This document shows positions 8,462 to 56,775 of a stretch of 64,000 nt of DNA, in pieces (position 1 is the stretch's first letter; every line of letters begins with the position of its first letter). The DNA comes from Bradyrhizobium algeriense (GTDB lineage Bacteria; Pseudomonadota; Alphaproteobacteria; Rhizobiales; Xanthobacteraceae), in NCBI RefSeq assembly GCF_036924595.1, contig NZ_JAZHRV010000001.1, forward strand, positions 7,777,501 to 7,841,500. The letters are read 5' to 3'. The translations under genes and the position numbers were made by a program. The notes under the pieces were generated by a model. It made no database searches. It saw only the letters and a list, made by a program, of their open reading frames with translations, and was not told the DNA's origin.

Positions 8462-9042
8462 TTGGCAGTGTTGAAATACGGCTATGCCCGCGTCTCTACC
8501 ACCGAGCAGGATCATGCTGGGCAAGTCGATGCGCTAAAGGCCGCTAGCGCTGTCAAGGCCTTCAGCGAAAAGATAAGCGGGATAAGGGCGGACCGGCCAC
8601 AGCTCGCCCGTGCGATTGCCGCGCTCGACCAGGGCGATGTGTTAGCAGTCACGCGGATTGACCGCCTGGCGCCTTCGGCGCGTGATCTTCTTAACATCGT
8701 GCATGACATCGAGGCGAGGGCGCGACCTTCGAGTCGTTGACCGAGCCTTGGGCCAACACGAACTCACCGCAAGCCGCGGCTATGCTGACGATGCTTTCGG
8801 CTTTCGCCCAGCTCGAACGCGCATTTATCTTGGCCAGGACGAAAGAGGGCAGGGAGCGCGCGCGGATTTTAGGCCGAAGCTTCGGGCCCAAGTTCAAGCT
8901 CAGCCAGCAGCAGATCGCGCACGCGCGGGATCTGCAAGGTGAAGGGCGCGGCCTGCGGGAGATTAGTGCGCTGCTTGGTTGTCATGCCTCAACCATATCG
9001 CGCGCCCTGCAAATTCAAAAAGAAGAGGAGGAAATCGCATGA
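8462..9042 (+). pseudogene. Serine resolvase/invertase, frameshifted
   Basis: A small serine recombinase read in two frames. The N-terminal part has the catalytic YARVSTTEQDHAGQ motif and the RIDRLAPSARDLL helix. After about codon 90 the frame shifts, and the protein continues ATFESLTEPWANT, then MLTMLSAFAQLERAFILARTKEG and a C-terminal helix-turn-helix (LREISALLGCHASTISRAL). All parts of a Tn3-family resolvase are present except a single reading frame. The shift lies near 8720-8735. The start is a TTG at 8462. The stop overlaps the WGR gene by ATGA. Confidence 0.75.
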
Positions 9043-9507: not shown

Positions 9508-10197
9508 ATGGAGGATGATGTGAACGACTTTGAGCAGCAGCCATTTGCGGATGCAGAATTTGCAGAAAATCCTGAGCAGCGTTGTCCTTGTATCCTCTTG
9601 CTGGACACCTCCACGTCGATGCGTGGCGAGCCAATTCGGCAGCTCAATGAAGGGCTCTTGGCGTTCAAGGAAGACTTGCAGAACGATCCAATGGCCGCCA
9701 AACGAGTTGAACTCGCTATCGTGACCTTCGGCCCAGTCGAGACCCGGGCTGATTTCAAGACGGTTGACGGCTATTTTCCAGAGATGCTTGAAGCAAGCGG
9801 CGCCACGCCGATGGGCGAAGCCATTGTCCAAGCACTCGACATGCTACGTGCACGTAAAGACCGCTATCGCGCAAATGGCATCAAATACAATCGGCCCTGG
9901 ATTTTCTTGATCACGGACGGGGCGCCTACCGACAGTTGGCAAGAAGCCAAACACCGCGTCCATGAGAGTGAAGGGCGCAAAGAAGTTCTCTTCTATGCGG
10001 TTGGGGTCGAGGGCGCGGACCTGTCAATCTTGTCGCAGATTGCAGTACGGCAACCGCTCAAACTTAAGGGACTGGCTTTCCGCGAACTGTTCTTATGGTT
10101 GTCGGGTTCGCTAAGCGCGGTGTCCAAATCGGGCCCTGACGACGAGCCGCCATTGGTCAATCCCACGGCTCCGAACGGTTGGGCCTTTGCCGGCTAA
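9508..10197 (+). CDS. TerY-like von Willebrand factor A protein
   Basis: A 229-residue cytoplasmic vWA domain. The metal-ion-dependent adhesion site is intact: DTSTSM at residues 33-38, TP in [10 protein letters not shown] near residue 105, and ITDGAPTD near 145. The shape matches TerY. It is the first gene of a three-gene row with a PP2C phosphatase and a kinase, a set described by Anantharaman, Iyer and Aravind as the TerY-P triad. The vWA protein is thought to act as a metal-dependent scaffold controlled by phosphorylation. It overlaps the phosphatase gene by 11 bases. Confidence 0.85.
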
Positions 10198-10948
10198 TCC
10201 CACCCGCTGGCGTTGGGCTGCTGCTTCCAGAACTGGCACATCCCACCTGCGGGCGGGGACCAGGAAGCAAGATGCTTATTCGGTCTCCAGCCTCCCGGAA
10301 AACGCAATTTGCGTCGTCGTCGCAGACGGCGCTGGCAGCGCGAGTCATGGCGGGGAGGGGGCTTCGCTCGTCTGCCGCTCTCTCATGGTCAAAATGCGGG
10401 CGTGGTTGACGCCCGGTCAGGCCTTGCCAAACGACGAGCAGATTATGGGCTGGCTCGACGAACTGCGCGACCAACTCGCCAAGGCTGCAACCAAGAGAGG
10501 CCTTACACGCCGGCAGTTTGCAGCGACTCTGGTTTTGCTCGTGGTGAAGGATGGTCAGCTCCTCTCTCTTCAGGTTGGTGACAGCGCTCTGGTCGGGCGC
10601 CGTGCTGGCATATGGGAGGCGATCTGCTGGCCCGAGAATGGCGAATTTGCATCTTCAACTTTTTTCGTTACGGACGATCCGGAAGTGCGGCTCCGGACAG
10701 CTAGACTGCCGCTAGAGCACGATGCATTCGCTCTCTTTTCGGACGGAATTGAAAATCTCGCACTTGAGCACGCCACAGTTCAGCCTCACGCTCGCTTTTT
10801 CGAGCCGATGATCCGGCCGGTCGATCAGTCGCCAGAGAGCGGCAGACTCACGAAACTGTCGCTGGCGCTGGGGCAATATCTCGATAGTCCCCCTGTCTGC
10901 GACCGAACCGACGACGACAAAACGCTCGTCTTGCTTTCGGGTGTCTGA
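10187..10948 (+). CDS. PP2C-family Ser/Thr protein phosphatase
   Basis: A 253-residue PP2C-like phosphatase. Metal-binding motifs are [18 protein letters not shown] (residues about 43-60), [12 protein letters not shown] near 190 and [11 protein letters not shown] at the end. The start is a TTG at 10187, inside the end of the vWA gene; the frame gives no better upstream choice. It is expected to reverse phosphorylation by the kinase that follows two bases later. It is shorter than many PP2C proteins but keeps the expected Asp residues. Confidence 0.85.
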
Positions 10949-10950
10949 TT

Positions 10951-13095
10951 ATGCAGTCGGTCAAGATCGGGGGCAAAACATACAAGCTAGGCAAACTGGT
11001 AGGCAAAGGCGGTGAAGGCGAAGTCTTTCTCGTCGAAAATCTGCCCGATCAGGCTGTGAAGATTTACAAGGACAGCTTGCGTGGTAGTCGCGAGCCGAAG
11101 GTCCGCGCCATGGTCAACGGCGCGCTCGCGGCATCTACGGAACTGGTAGCATTCCCTTCGGAAATCATCACCGATCTGACGGGTGGCTTCCGGGGTTTTA
11201 CGATGCGGTTGGTCAAAGCTTTTTGGCCAATGCATGAACTCTATAGCCCGAAGTCCCGCAAGCTTCGATATCCCAAAGCGGATTACCGGCACCTCATTCA
11301 CGCCGCACTCAACGTCGCGCGGGCTGTAGGAACAATCCATCAAACGGGATGCGTCATCGGTGACTTTAACCATTCTGGTGTGCTCGTTTCAGAAGGGGCC
11401 ACCGTTGCGTTGATCGACGCCGATAGCTTCCAGTTTACTATCAACGGGCGTGCTTACCCCTGCGTGGTGGGTGTTCCAGACTTTACGCCCCCTGAATTGC
11501 AAGGGCGCGACTTAAAGACCGTCACCAGAACGAAGGCTCAGGACCATTTCGGGCTAGCCGTCGCCATTTTTCAGCTTTTGGCGATGGGCAAGCATCCTTA
11601 TGCGGGACGATTCGCGGGGCCAGACCTCACGATGGGCGAAGCCATTGCGCAGAACCGCTTCGCATTTTCGATCGTCCGCCAGGCGCAAACCCGCACCACA
11701 CCGCCACCTGGCTCCATCACCCTCAAAGATTTTCCGGCGCCGATTGGGCAAGCATTCGAGGCAGCATTCGGATTAGAGCCTGCGGCACGACCCGATGCCG
11801 CAACTTGGGTTTCATTGCTCAAAGACTTTGAAGCCAAGCTTAGCCATTGCACGAAGGTCAAGACTCACTACTACCCATCCGCCGCGCACGAGTGTGTTTG
11901 GTGTCGCCTGACTGTCCAATCAGGCGTCGACATGTTCCCAGACTTTCTGGGTGGCGACACTCCCGTTCCACCAACCGGGACTTTCGACGTCGAGCGCATT
12001 TGGGCTCAGATTCGCGCGGTCTCCTTACCTCAGCCCGCAAGTCTCATTCCCAAATGGGTCGGCACATTCGGCACGGACGGCGCCATTGCGAGTGCCAAGC
12101 GCGACGTCATGGCAAACAAGGCGGCAGGGGTGGCTGCGCTCATCGCTGCCGGAGCGGGGCTGGTCATTCTTTCTCCTCTAGCAATTGTCTGGCTGGGGCT
12201 TGGCGCCTTTGGTCTGTACAAGCTGTTTGGTGGGGGTATCGATGCGGGACCGTTCAGGAGCGCGTTTACGCTCGCTGACCAACGGGCGCGGGAAGCGGAA
12301 ACCGCCTTTCTGCAGCGTATCGGCCTCACCGAGCTATACGGCGTTCGCGACGACCTCGACACGTGGATTGCTCAGTACCGCCAGCTCGATACAAGCCTCA
12401 ACCGTGACTTAGCGAACCTAAGATCGACCAGAGAGGCGCGACAGCGCGACGCTTTTCTCGATCGCTTCCCGATTCGAGCCGCGAAGATCTCGGGTATAGG
12501 GCCGGCTAAAACTGCCACCCTTGCTTCGTTTGGTATCGAAACCGCTGCTGACGTGAACGAAACCGCAGTGCGGGCCGTTCCAGGCTTTGGCGAGGCCATG
12601 ACCGCCAAGATGATGTCCTGGCGGCGTGCACATGAGGCTAGGTTTCGATACGACCCGGCACCCAGCCCATCTGATGCACAGGCGGAGAACGCCGTTCGGT
12701 CAGCCTGGGCCGTCAAGCGAGCCGATCTGCAATCCAAGATAAATTCAGGCCTCGCTGCCCTTCAGTCAGGCCCACAGCGCGTCGCGATACGCGCCCAGAC
12801 AGTCGATCAGCCGCTCATGGCCGCTCTTGGTGAGCGCTCGAAGGCCGCTCATAACCTTCAGCTGCTCGGCGTGCCTGTTCCATTCTCCGCGCCCGTCACA
12901 ATAACTCGAAAGGCGACGGCAACCCCGGCGGCGCCGCCTTCGACACCCGCGACTGCAACAACATCTCAAGGAGTGCCGAACTGTCCACGGTGTGGCTCAC
13001 CGATGAGGCGTCGGCTTGCCCGGCGCGGGCGGCAGGCGGGCCGAAGCTTTTGGGGATGTAGCCGTTATCCAGCTTGCACCGGCTCGCGCAACTAG
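10951..13095 (+). CDS. TerY-P type protein kinase with HhH and zinc-ribbon domains
   Basis: A 714-residue protein. An N-terminal kinase domain has a glycine loop GKGGEGEVF (residues 18-26), the ATP-binding Lys in QAVKIYK, a catalytic loop written GDFNHSGVLV and a DFG-equivalent IDADSFQF, the variant form typical of triad kinases. Two close membrane spans follow at about 393-432, then a coiled region, a helix-hairpin-helix (ISGIGPAKTATLASFG, about 512) and a topoisomerase-like zinc ribbon at the C-terminus (CPRCGSPM ... GCSRYPAC). It is the last gene of the vWA/PP2C/kinase row. The DNA-binding tail suggests action on or near DNA. Confidence 0.88.
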   Translation: MQSVKIGGKTYKLGKLVGKGGEGEVFLVENLPDQAVKIYKDSLRGSREPKVRAMVNGALAASTELVAFPSEIITDLTGGFRGFTMRLVKAFWPMHELYSPKSRKLRYPKADYRHLIHAALNVARAVGTIHQTGCVIGDFNHSGVLVSEGATVALIDADSFQFTINGRAYPCVVGVPDFTPPELQGRDLKTVTRTKAQDHFGLAVAIFQLLAMGKHPYAGRFAGPDLTMGEAIAQNRFAFSIVRQAQTRTTPPPGSITLKDFPAPIGQAFEAAFGLEPAARPDAATWVSLLKDFEAKLSHCTKVKTHYYPSAAHECVWCRLTVQSGVDMFPDFLGGDTPVPPTGTFDVERIWAQIRAVSLPQPASLIPKWVGTFGTDGAIASAKRDVMANKAAGVAALIAAGAGLVILSPLAIVWLGLGAFGLYKLFGGGIDAGPFRSAFTLADQRAREAETAFLQRIGLTELYGVRDDLDTWIAQYRQLDTSLNRDLANLRSTREARQRDAFLDRFPIRAAKISGIGPAKTATLASFGIETAADVNETAVRAVPGFGEAMTAKMMSWRRAHEARFRYDPAPSPSDAQAENAVRSAWAVKRADLQSKINSGLAALQSGPQRVAIRAQTVDQPLMAALGERSKAAHNLQLLGVPVPFSAPVTITRKATATPAAPPSTPATATTSQGVPNCPRCGSPMRRRLARRGRQAGRSFWGCSRYPACTGSRN

Positions 13096-33208: not shown

Positions 33209-33826
33209 ATGGCGAAGAAGCTGAAGACCTACGAGACATCATTAGGCTTTTTCGATCTGGCGATAGCGGCGCCCTCGATGAAGGCGGCTTTGGAAGCCTG
33301 GGGCGCGGACAGCAATCTTTTTCACCAGGGCGTGGCGACGCAAAGTGAGGATCCCGACGTTATCGCAGCGACCATGGCGGCGCCGGGCGTCGTTCTGAAA
33401 CGCCCCGTCGGGTCCAGCGGACCCTTCAAGGCGCACGCCGAACTGCCTACCCATCTCGCCGGCGGCCATGGCGCGAAGACGTCAGGCCGCAAATCGCAGA
33501 GCCGCAGGGCACAGAAGCCCCCGAGGCGAGGCAACGACCCGGCGGCCGACCGGAAGGCTGCACTCGCTTTTGAGAAGGAGCAGAATCGCCGCGAGCGCGA
33601 ACGCGCGAAGGAAGAAGCCGCCCGGGAGAAGGAGCGCGAGCGACGGCAGCACGCCATCGACAAGGCACAAGGCGCCTTGGACGCAGCCCGTCAGAAGCAC
33701 GAAGAGAAAACAGCAGGCATTCGAGCCGAGCTAGAGGCTCTCGAGGACGAGTCGCAGGCCGAAGAGGTGCGTTGGGAGAAGGAGAGGACGCGACTGGAAG
33801 CTGCGTTGCGACGGGCGCGAGGGTAA
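33209..33826 (+). CDS. Hypothetical coiled-coil protein (Ku-locus)
   Basis: A 205-residue protein starting MAKKLKTYETSLGFFDLAIA, 22 bases after the MBL gene. The first 80 residues are a compact domain (APSMKAALEAWGADSNLFHQ). From about 110 to the end it is a long charged coiled coil rich in Glu, Arg and Lys (EKEQNRRERERAKEEAAREK). Automatic annotation often calls such proteins TolA-like because of the coil. It follows Ku and MBL with conserved spacing, so it may be co-expressed with them. Its function is unknown. Confidence 0.7.
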   Translation: MAKKLKTYETSLGFFDLAIAAPSMKAALEAWGADSNLFHQGVATQSEDPDVIAATMAAPGVVLKRPVGSSGPFKAHAELPTHLAGGHGAKTSGRKSQSRRAQKPPRRGNDPAADRKAALAFEKEQNRRERERAKEEAAREKERERRQHAIDKAQGALDAARQKHEEKTAGIRAELEALEDESQAEEVRWEKERTRLEAALRRARG

Positions 33827-34051: not shown

Positions 34052-35728
34052 ATGGTCAATGCGCTCGTCATTCGCCGCAATACCCAACTGGCAAAAGCCC
34101 AGAAGGCGCTTCGCGCGGCGCAATATGTTCGAATGTCCACCGATCTTCAGCGCTATTCGACCCAGAACCAGGCGGCCGCCATCGCCGCATACGCGCAGCA
34201 ACGAAACCTTACGATCGTTCGGACTTATGTCGACGAAGGGCGCAGCGGAGTGAGGATCAACCGGCGGCCGGCCCTCGCCGAACTGATCAAGGATGTTCAA
34301 TCAGGAAACACGGACTTTGAGCACGTTCTGGTTTACGACGTCAGCCGATGGGGACGCTTCCAGGATGTCGATGAGAGCGCGCATTATGAGTTTGTCTGCA
34401 AGCAAAGCGGCGTCAAGGTCGCCTATTGCGCTGAACAATTCGAAAACGACGGAAGTCTTCTGTCGAGCATCTTAAAGAACATCAAGCGCGTCATGGCGGC
34501 TGAGTTTAGCCGGGAGCTTGGCGTCAAGGTGCACGCCGGCCACTGCCGAATAGCGGGCCTTGGCTATCGCGTTGGTGGTTCGCTGACGTTCGGGCTCGGC
34601 AGGGAGATGGTCGATGAGAAGCAACGCTCGAAAGGTCGGCTCAGGAAGGGCGAGTACAAGGCCCTGAAAACGGACCGCGTGCGGCTTCAGCTCGGGTCTG
34701 GCGAAGAAATGGCGATCGTCAAATGGATATTCCAGCAGTTCGTCATGGAGCGAAAGACCGACGTTGAAATCGCACGGCAGCTCAATAGGGCCAATATCCC
34801 CAATCACCATGGGCGTCCTTGGTCCTACCTGATGGTCCACTACATTCTCAAGAACGAGAACTATATCGGAAACCTCGTTTACAACCGCACCTCGCGGCGC
34901 CTTGGACAGAAGCAGGTGAACAACCCTGATCACCTGTGGATTCGGACCTCATCGGTGGTCGCTCCAGTGGTTGATCAAGACCTCTTCGCGCGCGCCCAAA
35001 AAATCATGGCCGAGCGTTATATCTCAATCCCGGAAGATCAGATGCTCCGCAGGCTCCGTCTCACGCTCGGTCGCAAGGGAAAGCTTAGCTCCAGTATCAT
35101 CAAAAACGCGCCGGGACTTCCCTCTCCCGCATGTTACGTCAAGCATTTCGGCTCGATAAGAAATGCCTACAAGCTCATCGGCTATGAAGGTTCGCGCGAC
35201 TGTAGGTGGTTTGACGTGCGAGATCACTGGACCGAGCGTTTGTCAAAGCTCGCAACACAGGTTGCGAAGGCGCTAAGGACCGATCGCGGGATTCGCTTGA
35301 AGCCAACCAGCGATGGTATAGGGCTGGCACGGAACGGAAACAGAAAGATCATCTCATTTCAGGTGGTCCGGAAAATGGCGAAGAGGACTCCAAACCACGT
35401 TGCACTATGGAGAGCCCACCTGAGGAAGGAGCGATCCGAGCTGTGTGTTTACTTGCGACTGAACGACTCCAACGAGGTGGTTCAAGACTATGTATTGTTG
35501 GCCTCAGCGGACACTACGACGCCTTACTTGACGCTGTCAGATGGCCTTTTAGCTCGCCACCAGGCTGTTCGCGTCGACACCGTTAGCGAGCTTATTCGGG
35601 ACATCACAGCGAGATTTGTATCGGCCAGCCGTGTCTCGCCAACCAGGCCAAGGCGAACGAACAAGCGAAAGAAACCAAGCCGGCCCCGAACCAGGAACGT
35701 CCGCGCGGCACTAATGGAACGCAGATAG
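34052..35728 (+). CDS. Large serine recombinase
   Basis: A 558-residue recombinase of the serine integrase class. The catalytic N-terminal domain begins AQYVRMSTDLQRYSTQNQ with Ser29. DVSRWGRFQDVDESAHYEF follows, and the recombinase domain ends near WSYLMVHYILKNENYIGNLVYN. Unlike most members it has no Cys-rich zinc ribbon; a segment reading GRKGKLSSSIIKNAPG and SIRNAYKLIGYEGSRD takes its place, resembling DNA-binding repeats in this rhizobial subfamily. The tail is basic. GGAG lies eight bases upstream of the ATG. It may have moved part of this island. Confidence 0.85.
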   Translation: MVNALVIRRNTQLAKAQKALRAAQYVRMSTDLQRYSTQNQAAAIAAYAQQRNLTIVRTYVDEGRSGVRINRRPALAELIKDVQSGNTDFEHVLVYDVSRWGRFQDVDESAHYEFVCKQSGVKVAYCAEQFENDGSLLSSILKNIKRVMAAEFSRELGVKVHAGHCRIAGLGYRVGGSLTFGLGREMVDEKQRSKGRLRKGEYKALKTDRVRLQLGSGEEMAIVKWIFQQFVMERKTDVEIARQLNRANIPNHHGRPWSYLMVHYILKNENYIGNLVYNRTSRRLGQKQVNNPDHLWIRTSSVVAPVVDQDLFARAQKIMAERYISIPEDQMLRRLRLTLGRKGKLSSSIIKNAPGLPSPACYVKHFGSIRNAYKLIGYEGSRDCRWFDVRDHWTERLSKLATQVAKALRTDRGIRLKPTSDGIGLARNGNRKIISFQVVRKMAKRTPNHVALWRAHLRKERSELCVYLRLNDSNEVVQDYVLLASADTTTPYLTLSDGLLARHQAVRVDTVSELIRDITARFVSASRVSPTRPRRTNKRKKPSRPRTRNVRAALMERR

Positions 35729-39029: not shown

Positions 39030-42020
39030 TTGGCTCGCACTACCCACGACCTCGCTTCGTTGACGATCCTTCAGCGCAAAAGTCCCACGGCTCGGACCAA
39101 GTGGCTGCCAAAGCCGGGCGAGCGTCATCCGACCCAGACCCTCGTGTGCGTGTACGCTCGCTTCTCCTCGTCTGAGCAGAAGCAGCGGAGCATCGAGCGC
39201 CAGGAAGGACGATGTGGGGACTACATCGACAGGAGGCTCGACGGCGCCAAATACATGATGTTCTCCGATCCTGCGCGTAGCGGAACGCTTCTCCAGGAGC
39301 GGCCCAACCTCATGGCGTTGCTCGAACTCGTGAAGACCGGCAGCGTCCGCCACATCGTGATAGAGGCGATGGACCGCCTCACGCGCGTGATCTGGGATGC
39401 CACCAGGATCGGGGAATTGTTGGAGGCCTACGGGGTCGAGCTTCACGTCTGGAACCTCGACCGAGGCGTCAGCCGCCAAGAGCTCCTCGACGAGGCCAAG
39501 CGCGCCGAGGCGGATCGATTTCGGCGTGTCGAGCTCACGACCGACGGGCTCTACGACCTGATACGCCGCGGCGGCATGCCGTTCAAATGCTTCGGCTACG
39601 AAGAGAGCGACGTTCCCGGCTTTCCGGTCAAGTCCGTGGAGCAGGCGAAGGCCGTGAAGCGCGCCTTCGAACTCACGCCGTACCATTCCGATGCGGTCGT
39701 GGCGACCAAGTTGAGCGAAGAGGGCTTCATAAGTCCCAACGGTACCACGACGTGGGACAAGTGGGACATCGCCCGGATATGCAACAACCTAGCCTACATC
39801 GGCGTCGTCAATTTCCGAACGACGGACCAGGAAACCACGAGACTTCTGGACGAGGACCACGAGCCGGCGTTCGGCGACATCAGCGTGAAGATGAAGGTCA
39901 TCAAGAACCACTTCAAACGTGACGTCGAGGAGTGGGTCGTGGGATACAACGAGGAGCGTTATGCGATCGTGACGGACGAGGAGTTTGTCGCGGCCGACAG
40001 AGCGAGAACGGCGCGACGTCGAGGCCCCGGAGCTGCCGAGCGTGCGGGTCAGACATCCGTCCGAGATCCGTTCGTCAATCCCATCTGCGATTGTCCGGGA
40101 AGGGCTTCGAGCCAGCGCTTCCACTTGACCCGCAACAACGGCTACGAGGTGTACCAATGCTCGCAGCAGCGAGGTTATCACGGCTGCGTCAGCCGGCTCG
40201 GACAAAGCAACATCATGGTCGAGGACGTGCAGCGCGTGATCATGAGTTCCCTCCGAAGGCACGCCCTGCCGCTGTGCGAAAGCGCCGACTTCCGCGCCGA
40301 CTTCATCGAACGCGTTAGGATGCGGGCAGCGGAACAGGAGCTCCGGCGAGCCCAGATGCAGAGGGAGCGTGACGACCTGGACGCGCAGATCGACGATCTG
40401 CTCGAGAATGCGCTCAAGAGCGGCTTCGGTCGGGACCGGGTGGCTAAAAAGGTGGAGGCGCTCGAGGAGGCTCTGCGCCAGAAGGAATCGGACATCGTGA
40501 AGCTTCCAAAGATCGATCCGGACACGGTCGATGTCGAACGCGCCGCCGGCGACTTGTCCGAGGCCTTCGAGTTAGTCGACGGACACCTTCCGTTCAGGCC
40601 CGAGAGTGAGAACGAGGCAAAGGTCGCGTCAAGATTGCGGTCCATGATCGGCACGGTAGTGGTCCGCCGCGAAAACGTACCGGTCGGCCGAGCCGAGATC
40701 GAGGTCGCACTCGACGTCGAAGGCTTCATCCTCGAACCGAAGGAGCGCACGGAGCGCACGTGGATCCTGGAAAGACAGGAAATCCGCGGGATGAGGCTGC
40801 TCAAATCGACTGAAAAGATGTCCGCAGCGTTGGACGAGCTGGCCGCATCCGGCCACTACGCGCTCACCGACGCGCAGTGGGAGATCGTGGCACCGCATCT
40901 GCCGAATATGAGCAAGGTCTACCGCAACGTCACGCGGGCCATGCCGACGCGCGCTCTGGCCGACGCTTGCATCTTCAAGTTCCGAACCGGCGTCGACCCG
41001 TTGCGGTTACCTCGAATGTTTGGCGAGCCAAATGGCATGCGTGCTCTCATCGGACGGTTCGTTCGGATGGGCGGCATGACCGAGATCATTACGAGACTGG
41101 GCGCGGTCGACCCGTCGTGGCCGGAGGGTCTGGACGTGCGCGAATTCGAAGCCTGGTCCCATCGCAAAGATCCGGTTTGGTTGTTCGACAACGATGGTAC
41201 CAAACTAGCGGCGACGTGGGCGGCCGAGAAACGCTTCAGCCTGACGGATGCTCAATTCCGAGCCATCGAAGATCTGATCGACCCGGGTGTTCTCGAGCCG
41301 AACAAGGGACGGCAAGCGCTCGACGCGCGTCAGCTTATCGACGGTATCGTCCTGAAGCTCCGCTCCGGCATCACTTGGAATCGTATGCCCGCTCCTTGGG
41401 GCAAAGGCAGCGACTTTTCGCGTGCGTCGGCGGCTTTGGCGCGTTCCGGCGGGTGGGGCAGAATCGTCGAAGCATTGCGCGTTAAATTCCCAGAAATCCT
41501 CGACGGGCTTGCGGTCGACGTCATCGATCGGCATGGCGCCAGTCTCGACCGTAGGAAGACGCGCAACACCGTGATCAACAACCGCGGAAAGGATAACTCG
41601 AGAGGGATTTTCGCGAACATCGGGACGCTTTTGCGCTCAGCCACCACGGGTACGGACCTGGCGGTCGGCCTGTCCGGGTCGCGAGTCCGCCTTCCAGGTA
41701 GAGCCCTCCTTCGACCCAACGTCGTCGTCGGGCCGGTTGACGCGATCGTCGGAAAGATATTCACGCAGCCGGTGATCGTCGCGCAGCGCGGCCACCACAA
41801 GGGCGGCGCGCAGACGGCCACGACTGTCGCATCTTATCGTGCAGCCGGAGGCCTCCAGCACATTCTCGTGGTTTCCACGGCGCGCATGCGCATCGACCAT
41901 CACCAGAGAAAGGGCGGCAAGTGGATTTGTCGCGTTTTGAAGGCGGATGATGCGGTCATCTTCGAAGCGATGAACCTCTCCCTGCCTCTGCGCGAGATCT
42001 ATGCCGGAGCGGAGATGTGA
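39030..42020 (+). CDS. Large serine recombinase fused to two DUF4096-like repeats and a degenerate Uma2-like domain
   Basis: A 996-residue protein starting at TTG, nine bases after AGGAGG. Residues 38-165 are a serine recombinase catalytic domain (CVYARFSSSEQKQRSIERQE, Ser46; IEAMDRLTR). Residues 170-330 are the recombinase domain, 350-388 a zinc ribbon (CDC at 353-355, Cys377, Cys386), and 430-495 a coiled coil. Then come two repeats of the IS5/IS402-type N-terminal domain: YALTDAQWEIVAPHLP at 610 and FSLTDAQFRAIEDLI at 736 with KLRSGITWNRMPAPWGKGS. Residues about 855-995 resemble Uma2 (DUF820) nucleases (VRLPGRALLRPNVVVGP; LQHILVVSTARMRI; LPLREIY), but the usual Asp and Glu are Asn897 and Gln919. 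Confidence 0.8.
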   Translation: MARTTHDLASLTILQRKSPTARTKWLPKPGERHPTQTLVCVYARFSSSEQKQRSIERQEGRCGDYIDRRLDGAKYMMFSDPARSGTLLQERPNLMALLELVKTGSVRHIVIEAMDRLTRVIWDATRIGELLEAYGVELHVWNLDRGVSRQELLDEAKRAEADRFRRVELTTDGLYDLIRRGGMPFKCFGYEESDVPGFPVKSVEQAKAVKRAFELTPYHSDAVVATKLSEEGFISPNGTTTWDKWDIARICNNLAYIGVVNFRTTDQETTRLLDEDHEPAFGDISVKMKVIKNHFKRDVEEWVVGYNEERYAIVTDEEFVAADRARTARRRGPGAAERAGQTSVRDPFVNPICDCPGRASSQRFHLTRNNGYEVYQCSQQRGYHGCVSRLGQSNIMVEDVQRVIMSSLRRHALPLCESADFRADFIERVRMRAAEQELRRAQMQRERDDLDAQIDDLLENALKSGFGRDRVAKKVEALEEALRQKESDIVKLPKIDPDTVDVERAAGDLSEAFELVDGHLPFRPESENEAKVASRLRSMIGTVVVRRENVPVGRAEIEVALDVEGFILEPKERTERTWILERQEIRGMRLLKSTEKMSAALDELAASGHYALTDAQWEIVAPHLPNMSKVYRNVTRAMPTRALADACIFKFRTGVDPLRLPRMFGEPNGMRALIGRFVRMGGMTEIITRLGAVDPSWPEGLDVREFEAWSHRKDPVWLFDNDGTKLAATWAAEKRFSLTDAQFRAIEDLIDPGVLEPNKGRQALDARQLIDGIVLKLRSGITWNRMPAPWGKGSDFSRASAALARSGGWGRIVEALRVKFPEILDGLAVDVIDRHGASLDRRKTRNTVINNRGKDNSRGIFANIGTLLRSATTGTDLAVGLSGSRVRLPGRALLRPNVVVGPVDAIVGKIFTQPVIVAQRGHHKGGAQTATTVASYRAAGGLQHILVVSTARMRIDHHQRKGGKWICRVLKADDAVIFEAMNLSLPLREIYAGAEM

Positions 42021-48439: not shown

Positions 48440-48738
48440 AATTGGTGTTATCCGGATTATGGTGTGGGGTGATGGCAAATTACCTATTATCCGTTGCGCG
48501 AGAACACTGGAGCCGTCCGGGCAACCGCGCTCGAATCCTTTGGTATTCCCCGGCCTTGGTTGACCAACTCGTTCTCGGGGCGGTTTGGAGGGATGCAGAC
48601 CATCTCTTTCCTATACTGATGCTCAGGTGAAGAAGTTCGGCATCCCGATCTGGAGGTTCGGCGGCGCGTGAGTGCCGCAATCATTCTTGAAACACTCTAC
48701 TTTGATAGCATCGCAGTCAGTCTCCGAAGGACGCCATC

Positions 48739-48992
48739 ATGGCCGCTGTCACCATCCGCAACCTCTCCGAGGAGGCGCATCGCGCCCTGAAAGTCCGCGC
48801 GGCGCAGCACAATCGCAGCGCGTAAGCGGAAATGCGCGCCATTCTGGAGGCAGCCGTGCGTCCCGAGGGCCGGCTGCGGCTCGCACCGCCCTTTCGGAGA
48901 TGAGCCGGAAGATCGGCCTCACCAATGCCGATGTCGAGGCACTTGAACAGGGCCGCGACGCGCGTCCCGCTGAGCCGATGCGCTTCGAATGA
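48739..48992 (+). pseudogene. FitA-type antitoxin, nonsense mutation plus frameshift
   Basis: Begins MAAVTIRNLSEEAHRALKVR, the ribbon-helix-helix of FitA antitoxins. Codon 29 is TAA (48823-48825), where a Glu codon is expected in the run SAEAEMRAILEAAV. After about 48885 the frame shifts, and the end reads TALSEMSRKIGL, ADVEALEQGRDARPAE. The stop overlaps the toxin start (ATGA). With two lesions, the gene is dead. Confidence 0.75.
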
Positions 48993-49412
48993 TCCTGCTC
49001 GATACCAATGTGGTCTCCGAGGCGATGAAGCCCAATCCGCACCCATCGGTCCGTGACTGGCTCGACGCCCAGGCGGCCGAGACGCTGTTTCTCTCCAGCG
49101 TCACCATCGCCGAACTGTTTGTTCAGCATCGGCGCGCTGCCGCGCGGCAAGCGCAAGGACAGGCTGGCAGCTGCGCTCGACGGCGTGTTGGACCTGTTCG
49201 CGACCCGCATCCTGCCCTTCGATACCGCCGCGGCGCGGCGCTATGCCGAACTCGCCGTCAAGGCGCGCGCGGCCGGAAAAGGCTTCCCCACGCCCGATGG
49301 CTACATCGCTGCGATCGCCGCCGCGCACGGGTTCGCCGTGGCATCGCGCGACACGAGTGCGTTCAATGCCGCCGGTCTGACGATGATCGATCCCTGGACC
49401 CTGACCAGCTGA
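48989..49412 (+). pseudogene. FitB-type PIN toxin, frameshifted
   Basis: Begins MILLDTNVVSEAMKPNPHPS with the first PIN-domain Asp, continues LFLSSVTIAELF, then shifts frame near 49120. The other frame carries on with LPRGKRKDRLAAALDGVLDL, DTAAARRYAELAV, DGYIAAIAAAHGFAVASRDT and MIDPW. All acidic PIN residues are present across the two frames. This would be an RNA-cutting toxin, now inactive. It follows a dead antitoxin. Confidence 0.75.
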
Positions 49413-49788
49413 TAGGGTTGTCGAGCGGGCGCGTCACCGTGACGGCAGAAACCGCAAGGAATTGCTGATCTGGGTAAAAACCATCCCCTTCACCAAGCTT
49501 GAGCGAGACTGTTCGGAAAAACGTCGGTTGATTGCGGGTTCAACATTGTAATCCGAATAGCCAGAATTTCGAAGTCCATCTTGGATCTTCAAAGGCAGCC
49601 TCCGCGGGAGGATGCCTGCCAAATGGAACGGAAGCTCGCCACTCGAGCAGCAGGCGGCGGACACTAAGACGAATGAGCGAGGAAGACGTTCCGAACAGCC
49701 GGGCTGCAATCGATTTTTGATTACATCGTGATCCAATCGGTCGCCGAGGAGCGCGCGTCATGGGCGGCGGCAACCTGTTCCGCCAACC
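49413..49788. other. Gap with an RNase Z-like gene fragment
   Basis: About 375 bases. Positions 49678-49737 resemble the last codons of the MBL gene at 32281-33186 and the bases after it: both have ...NSR-A-DF... and then CATCGTGATC. The fragment is too short to be functional. No other gene is seen. Confidence 0.45.
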
Positions 49789-55940: not shown

Positions 55941-56169
55941 TTGGCAAATGCACACGATCTTGAACTTTGCACGTCTCATCGCCTGCTAAATGTCGTAGGT
56001 CCAATTGCCGGCCATCGGCGAATTGGGGCACCGCAGATTTTGGACGGCCTCGGCAAGTCTGAGCTCCCACCTTCTGCGCGCCGTGACTTCCGTCTTTGAA
56101 TTGAGACAGACAACGGTCCGCTCAGAGGTGACATGAGCGATGTGGCAAACGATAGCTGCCCTATTGGCG

Positions 56170-56775
56170 TTACCGACCGTTGCGGGGCCTCGCACGCCGC
56201 TTCTTGCGGGACTCCGGCAAATTGGCCGCTGAAGCCCGCTGATTCTCCTGAAACTTGAGCGTCGCTTGAACATGTTCGGCGAGCTTCAACGCGCTATCGG
56301 CGTTCGAAGCAAGACGAGACAGCAGCTGGGACAACACTTTGAAATCCTCGCGCGTCAGCATTCCGAACAATGCGTCATTGACCGGGCGTTGCAAGGCCGC
56401 AAGGCGGATCAGTCGGCTCACTCCGTGCTGGGTGAGGGCAAGTTGCACCCGACGTCCGTCGCCGGGATGGGGGGTCTTCTCGATCAGCCCGTCAGACACC
56501 AGCTTGTTGATCTCGTTGGTGACGAAGGCGCCGCTTAGATACAAGCGTTCGGCGACCTGGTTGACCCCCATGGGCTCTTCCGCCGTCGAATTCTTGATCG
56601 CGATCAATATCAGATACTGGGTAGGCGATAGACCGACAAAGCTCGCGAACGTCTCACGGGCGGCTTCCAGGCTGCGCCCGAAAGCGAAATAGTCGTAGAG
56701 GAGGCCGCGAAGCGTGCCGTCTCCATCTTTATCGAGCAGCTCGGGCTTGGACGCTGTCAAAAGCGCATCGATCAA
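56170..56775 (-). CDS. MarR family transcriptional regulator
   Basis: A 201-residue regulator. The winged helix is seen at VNQVAERLYLSGAFVTNEIN and LVSDGLIEKTPHPGDGRRVQ, with the wing and D-R motif intact. Helices before and after form the dimer part, and a basic tail (RKKRRARPRNGR) ends the protein. It is divergent from the flavin reductase/monooxygenase operon, with about 150 bases between, so it probably represses that operon and responds to an aromatic acid. That is the usual pattern, but inferred. Confidence 0.85.
   Translation of the reverse strand: MIDALLTASKPELLDKDGDGTLRGLLYDYFAFGRSLEAARETFASFVGLSPTQYLILIAIKNSTAEEPMGVNQVAERLYLSGAFVTNEINKLVSDGLIEKTPHPGDGRRVQLALTQHGVSRLIRLAALQRPVNDALFGMLTREDFKVLSQLLSRLASNADSALKLAEHVQATLKFQENQRASAANLPESRKKRRARPRNGR

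Follow-up and report, generated by a model that had tools for sequence, protein, structure and literature searches.

The window analysed here, a 64,000-nucleotide stretch of the Bradyrhizobium algeriense genome, encodes a large serine recombinase (LSR) that carries a long C-terminal tail. LSRs integrate elements at att sites via a catalytic serine; recognition of the att half-sites falls to their recombinase and zinc-ribbon domains, and the coiled coil controls direction. Is the tail a genuine part of this protein, and what could it contribute to such an enzyme?

The recombinase core and its tail

The features discussed are the following:
39030..42020 (+): whole gene, LSR with two OrfA-like modules and a Uma2-fold domain, 996 aa
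39015..39020 (+): ribosome-binding site AGGAGG, nine bases 5' of the TTG start (sequence)
39147..39545 (+): catalytic (Resolvase) domain, residues 40-172, Ser46 nucleophile (Pfam, motif YARFS, fold)
39546..40049 (+): recombinase domain, residues 173-340 (Pfam 204-327)
40062..40799 (+): putative zinc ribbon (cysteines 353/355/377/386), a coiled coil at 419-491 and the return strands, together about residues 345-590 (alignment, model)
40854..41135 (+): OrfA-like module 1 (DUF4096), residues 609-702
41136..41231 (+): linker, residues 703-734
41232..41510 (+): OrfA-like module 2 (DUF4096), residues 735-827; the NCBIfam IS5_3 match spans 735-855
41580..42017 (+): Uma2/DUF820-fold domain, residues 851-996, Asn897 and Gln919 replacing Asp and Glu
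34052-35728 (+): ordinary large serine recombinase, 558 aa
43328-48453 (-): DUF6634, AAA ATPase (Lon-like ATPase match) and HTH genes

The gene is one uninterrupted open reading frame with a TTG start, and its AGGAGG is the strong ribosome site that the initial annotation had pointed out. Pfam reports a Resolvase domain (59.5 bits, cut-off 23.3), a Recombinase domain (32.6 bits, cut-off 21.1) and two DUF4096 stretches. The LSR catalytic residues are present (YARFS46, D115, R116, R119), the serine being common to 53 of the 54 LSR cores compared, with a gap in the remaining one. Pfam gives no zinc-ribbon match; four conserved cysteines are seen in the alignment and a coiled coil in the model, and the fold of the core is that of an LSR with its serine kept. 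Alignment, Pfam and fold search agree with the domain order initially proposed (LSR, two DUF4096 copies, Uma2-type fold), and the residues named at that time were located at their positions.

Both DUF4096 copies were found by Pfam, also when the two pieces were searched separately, and they share 29% identity over 100 columns. A unit of about 125 residues, linker included, matches an IS5-type OrfA; the NCBIfam IS5_3 score of the protein (72.2 bits, profile positions 2-120 of 258) lies under the cut-off of 110. IS5 OrfA-type domains form a DNA-binding part of transposases and bind transposon ends. Fold searches with the modules gave no clear match to DNA-binding folds. Each module has a net charge of +3 and the Uma2 part one of +8, against -1, -4 and -5 in the LSR core's three parts; the charge on the modules is small, and in the relative P0005 two of its four modules are at -1. 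A phage family of 463 positions and unknown function, PHROG 6657, matches residues 732-821 and the modules of another locus (L048) near its own C-terminus. IS5 elements next to the gene were considered as its source or target and rejected: six places in the genome match DUF4096 at E <= 0.001, of which two belong to the gene under study and the remaining four all lie outside the window.

The fold search also matched residues 851-996 to the Uma2 fold, as had been suggested, and the catalytic Asp and Glu are indeed lost (Asn897, Gln919). Pfam PF05685 has no match in this piece and gives 13.5 bits, against a cut-off of 27, for the relative P0002. An active nuclease was rejected on the basis of these residues. 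We hold it highly improbable that this end still cuts DNA: such activity would fit the fold match and the Asp retained in P0002 and P0003, but in the window protein Asn and Gln stand in the places of Asp and Glu, and the Glu is missing in all three proteins with the domain.

Relatives and conservation of the tail

When about 5.8 billion proteins were searched, the 8000 candidates scored included three clusters of two-module relatives besides the window's own: P0002 (58% identity over 95%), P0003 (45% over 99%), whose six members come from seven contigs, and P0004 (30% over 80%). Metagenome contigs with P0002 and P0003 measure 31.6 and 26.1 kb, respectively. The database sequence of P0002 starts after the catalytic serine, which leaves its start or activity unsure. 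Many homologues of the same length had been named as what would support the fusion; P0002 and P0003 do share the C-terminus, but two-module relatives are few, and P0004 has both modules and ends ahead of the Uma2 part. Thus the relatives run on past residue 600, near which all homologues of an accidental tail had been expected to end. Identity to P0002, P0003 and P0004 is 69, 59 and 38% in the catalytic domain, 61, 46 and 32% in the recombinase domain, 63, 49 and 30% in module 1, and 63, 49 and 35% in module 2; for the Uma2 part it is 50 and 39% to P0002 and P0003. Constraint is alike on modules and enzyme, and weaker on the Uma2 part.

That the tail is an accidental read-through or an assembly chimera is therefore hardly credible. 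The small number of database relatives would suit such an origin, but three diverged relatives have the same order with module identity equal to enzyme identity, which rules out read-through or chance fusion, and the chromosome is a single contig.

The relatives bear one, two or four modules, and the arrays have a constant period of 120-127 residues. Across array proteins, modules at the same position share 61% identity versus 29% at different positions; P0010 (672 aa, taken as incomplete) was excluded from these pairs and from the tree. The sequences behind the module HMM were P0001-P0004 and P0005, the protein of G016, and their own scores therefore follow by construction; the HMM finds the module of G006 marginally (11.2 bits), and the modules of G208 score under the Pfam cut-off. 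The Uma2 domain is present in only three of the 13 full-length array proteins (P0001-P0003, the window's own included), since P0004 and nine four-module proteins have at most 64 residues after the last module, too few for Uma2. Of the architecture first described, LSR and OrfA-like modules are the constant parts, with module number varying, and Uma2 falls outside the core architecture.

A tree of 54 LSR cores groups the two-module proteins in one clade and the four-module proteins in another (100/100 each), and places both apart from 35 ordinary LSRs that group together (99/99); support for the two clades as sisters is 28/49, and several branches are long. The double-module profile, run on 233 genomes of the genus (E <= 1e-16, top 11 candidates per genome), reached one further genome, G016, which has two copies with unrelated sequence. 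Among 385 genomes of the class (E <= 1e-12, top 7 candidates per genome) and 397 of the order (top 6 per genome) it found none besides the window's gene. In the order survey G208 has a single module; the other matches of these two surveys span about one module, in frames of 115-449 aa. Named genomes gave none in collection A1 and three loci in collection A3. The tail query had no match in phage and plasmid collections, and IMG/VR scans gave no relatives; full-length queries of the collections reached one single-module plasmid protein, and module queries just weak phage matches, some annotated as transposase. One relative lies on a plasmid typed as conjugative.

Companion recombinases and genomic surroundings

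Five module-bearing LSR loci (L043, L044/L048, L045/L050, L049 and L207) have a shorter serine recombinase immediately upstream, on the strand of the LSR, and the marginal G006 locus (L047) has one immediately downstream. The CM4 pair, on a plasmid, consists of WP_041929360.1 and WP_012606065.1. In all six the companion lacks the canonical serine, the residue in that column being V (CM4), R (L048), A (L049, L050, L047) or G (L043), whereas the serine is kept in all eight long proteins compared. The companions are likely to be inactive as recombinases, but this is not certain, because four of the six have an offset serine (one residue earlier in the three A companions, YARSA, and one later in CM4) and a second alignment places a gap at the serine column for L050 and L047. 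In L050 the main domain of the companion is preceded by a short stub that bears a serine and is followed by a third piece. Since the companion domain HMM has companions among its training sequences, independent support comes from Pfam Resolvase (CM4 8.5e-18, L048 6.4e-15, L050 3.9e-20, L047 1.8e-14). Our own LSR HMM gave 1.2e-19 for L049 and 4.2e-11 for the very diverged L043 companion, which fails Pfam (E 0.062).

No second serine recombinase was found within about 5 kb in 20 LSR loci used as a control; these were drawn from surveys scoring the top 13 or top 2 candidates per genome, the LSR was found in the stretch in 19, and two were shortened by contig ends. A counter-case is G035 (L046), with two adjacent serine-bearing LSRs and no DUF4096. 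The longer of these (L046:6809-9451, -) ends in HTH_33/HTH_32-type helices, another transposase-type tail. Searching the window with the companions (tblastn) revealed none: the one match at E < 1e-4 was to the 558-aa recombinase at 34052, and a second (E 0.004) lay near 50.3 kb.

The 558-aa recombinase, 3.3 kb upstream of the gene, keeps its own catalytic serine and seems to be a distinct LSR of the ordinary kind. It is CcrB-like by NCBIfam, far under the cut-off, and its gene has 86-87% DNA identity to two copies in G019, both preceded by a relative of the 205-aa gene at 33209-33826. Downstream, the DUF6634, AAA and HTH genes (43.3-47.8 kb) have same-order counterparts with 70-74% DNA identity next to the four-module LSR of G016 C2, a single case that hints at a shared element backbone. 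The AAA-DUF6634-HTH cassette found no support as a general LSR partner, with an LSR match in none of 18 AAA loci fetched from other genomes; the closest cassette adjoins a four-module LSR.

Homology to four relatives begins at 56160-56272. The only similarity among their flanks is a 95-bp match linking two of the relatives; to the 240 kb that lie upstream in the window's genome, it is a single stretch of 514 bp (68%), and consequently no empty site or element ends were found from these sequences. No att site was found near the LSR genes, where the repeats are two-copy families and short inverted pairs that we take as chance.

Some further observations concern these regions. A conserved gene of about 220 aa, with a PVGGRGPYA-type N-terminus and no Pfam or PHROG match for the copies tested, lies downstream of all three four-module LSRs fetched (L048:13910-14890, L050:14391-15056, L049:9280-9936). 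In the window, 48626-49563 is a repeat that recurs in several genomes of the genus as 83-96% copies; its first 54 bases match in many of them, and it contains no tRNA or Rfam family. A resolvase-like gene at 8462-9042 (+) is apparently split over two overlapping frames, and the three genes at 9508-13095 (+) resemble, by eye, a von Willebrand, phosphatase and protein-kinase triad, presumably of the TerY-P type.

Proposed function and comparison with known systems

The protein has an apparently complete LSR core with its serine, two equivalents of an IS5-type OrfA and a Uma2 fold without the acidic residues, and its tail is conserved. It is probably an intact and active LSR, most likely acting as integrase for an integrative element, in which the modules would add DNA contacts and the Uma2 remnant would be no nuclease. 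This is suggested by the tail conserved in three relatives, the LSR fold with serine, the module homology to IS5 OrfA, the constant period, the position-specific conservation, the positive tail charge and the relative on a conjugative-type plasmid; the Uma2 fold with lost catalytic residues points to a non-cutting end. The core would cut and join att sites like known serine integrases, while each module, on its linker, would make one more DNA contact beside the att core, adding specificity or steadying the synapse. As initially suggested, the tail may bind DNA or set target choice. The Uma2 remnant may form a structural or DNA-contacting cap, and in the sister systems the companion probably tunes synapsis or direction. 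Against this explanation stand the slight module charge, the fold searches that gave the modules no clear match, the lack of a companion in the window, the few two-module relatives and the failure to find an att or empty site.

The weak module charge, the companions adjoining module-bearing LSRs and the absence of a clear DNA-binding match would be expected if the modules worked through protein contact (oligomerisation, the companion recombinase or a host factor) rather than DNA reading. We regard this as unlikely, for the modules are homologous to a transposase DNA-binding part, flexible linkers separate them, and the window has modules but no companion. It is rather improbable, too, that the protein is a resident recombinase, e.g. 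an invertase or a domesticated regulator. That element ends were not found and that relatives are few would fit such a protein; the LSR architecture, the two copies with unrelated sequence in G016 and the plasmid-borne relative speak against it, and absence from nearly all of the 233 genus genomes (top 11 candidates per genome) is expected of a mobile gene.

Going beyond the integrase reading, we tentatively consider that these proteins might represent an undescribed alphaproteobacterial branch of two-component serine integrases, although this is on the doubtful side: a catalytic LSR with one, two or four IS5-OrfA-derived, position-tuned DNA readers would act with a serine-less regulatory recombinase, the window having a one-component version whose array is capped by a dead Uma2 domain. 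The offset serine in four of six companions makes this less probable. If true, the array would extend integrase specificity in a natural way, module by module. Serine integrases are in demand for the insertion of large DNA, and their site choice is hard to extend. A natural LSR family lengthened by transposase-type repeats, often with a probably inactive partner, would show how specificity or control is added; the repeats allow testing one module at a time, and a transposase domain and a dead nuclease domain appear to have been reused jointly in one recombinase.

CcrA and CcrB are a pair of cassette recombinases. The relatives resemble them in having two serine recombinases side by side, but one partner is without the canonical serine in the six loci, and the window has no such partner. 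Serine integrases of known structure (SPbeta YokA, phiC31, Bxb1, TP901-1) match the window protein in fold and in the catalytic and recombinase parts, and apparently also in the zinc-ribbon and coiled-coil parts, whereas the window protein adds the OrfA-like pair and the Uma2-fold domain past the usual end at about residue 590. In comparison with an IS5-family transposase, whose OrfA (DUF4096, IS5_3) one window unit matches, these units stand in tandem on a recombinase and lack the DDE half. The C-terminal domain has the fold of the putative Uma2/DUF820 nucleases (3ot2, 1wdj, 9y1l), but with Asp and Glu replaced and fused to a recombinase. The protein would be a serine integrase whose tail is modular and derived from a transposase. 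Among the matches listed in the open-licence full-text literature, no description was found of an LSR with DUF4096 or Uma2, and the nearest printed parallel is formed by the multi-targeting LSRs bearing DUF4368. In these (PMC10083194) an LSR likewise bears one additional domain, whose function is unknown; in the window protein the extra domains are of the DUF4096 and Uma2 types, and Pfam reports no DUF4368.
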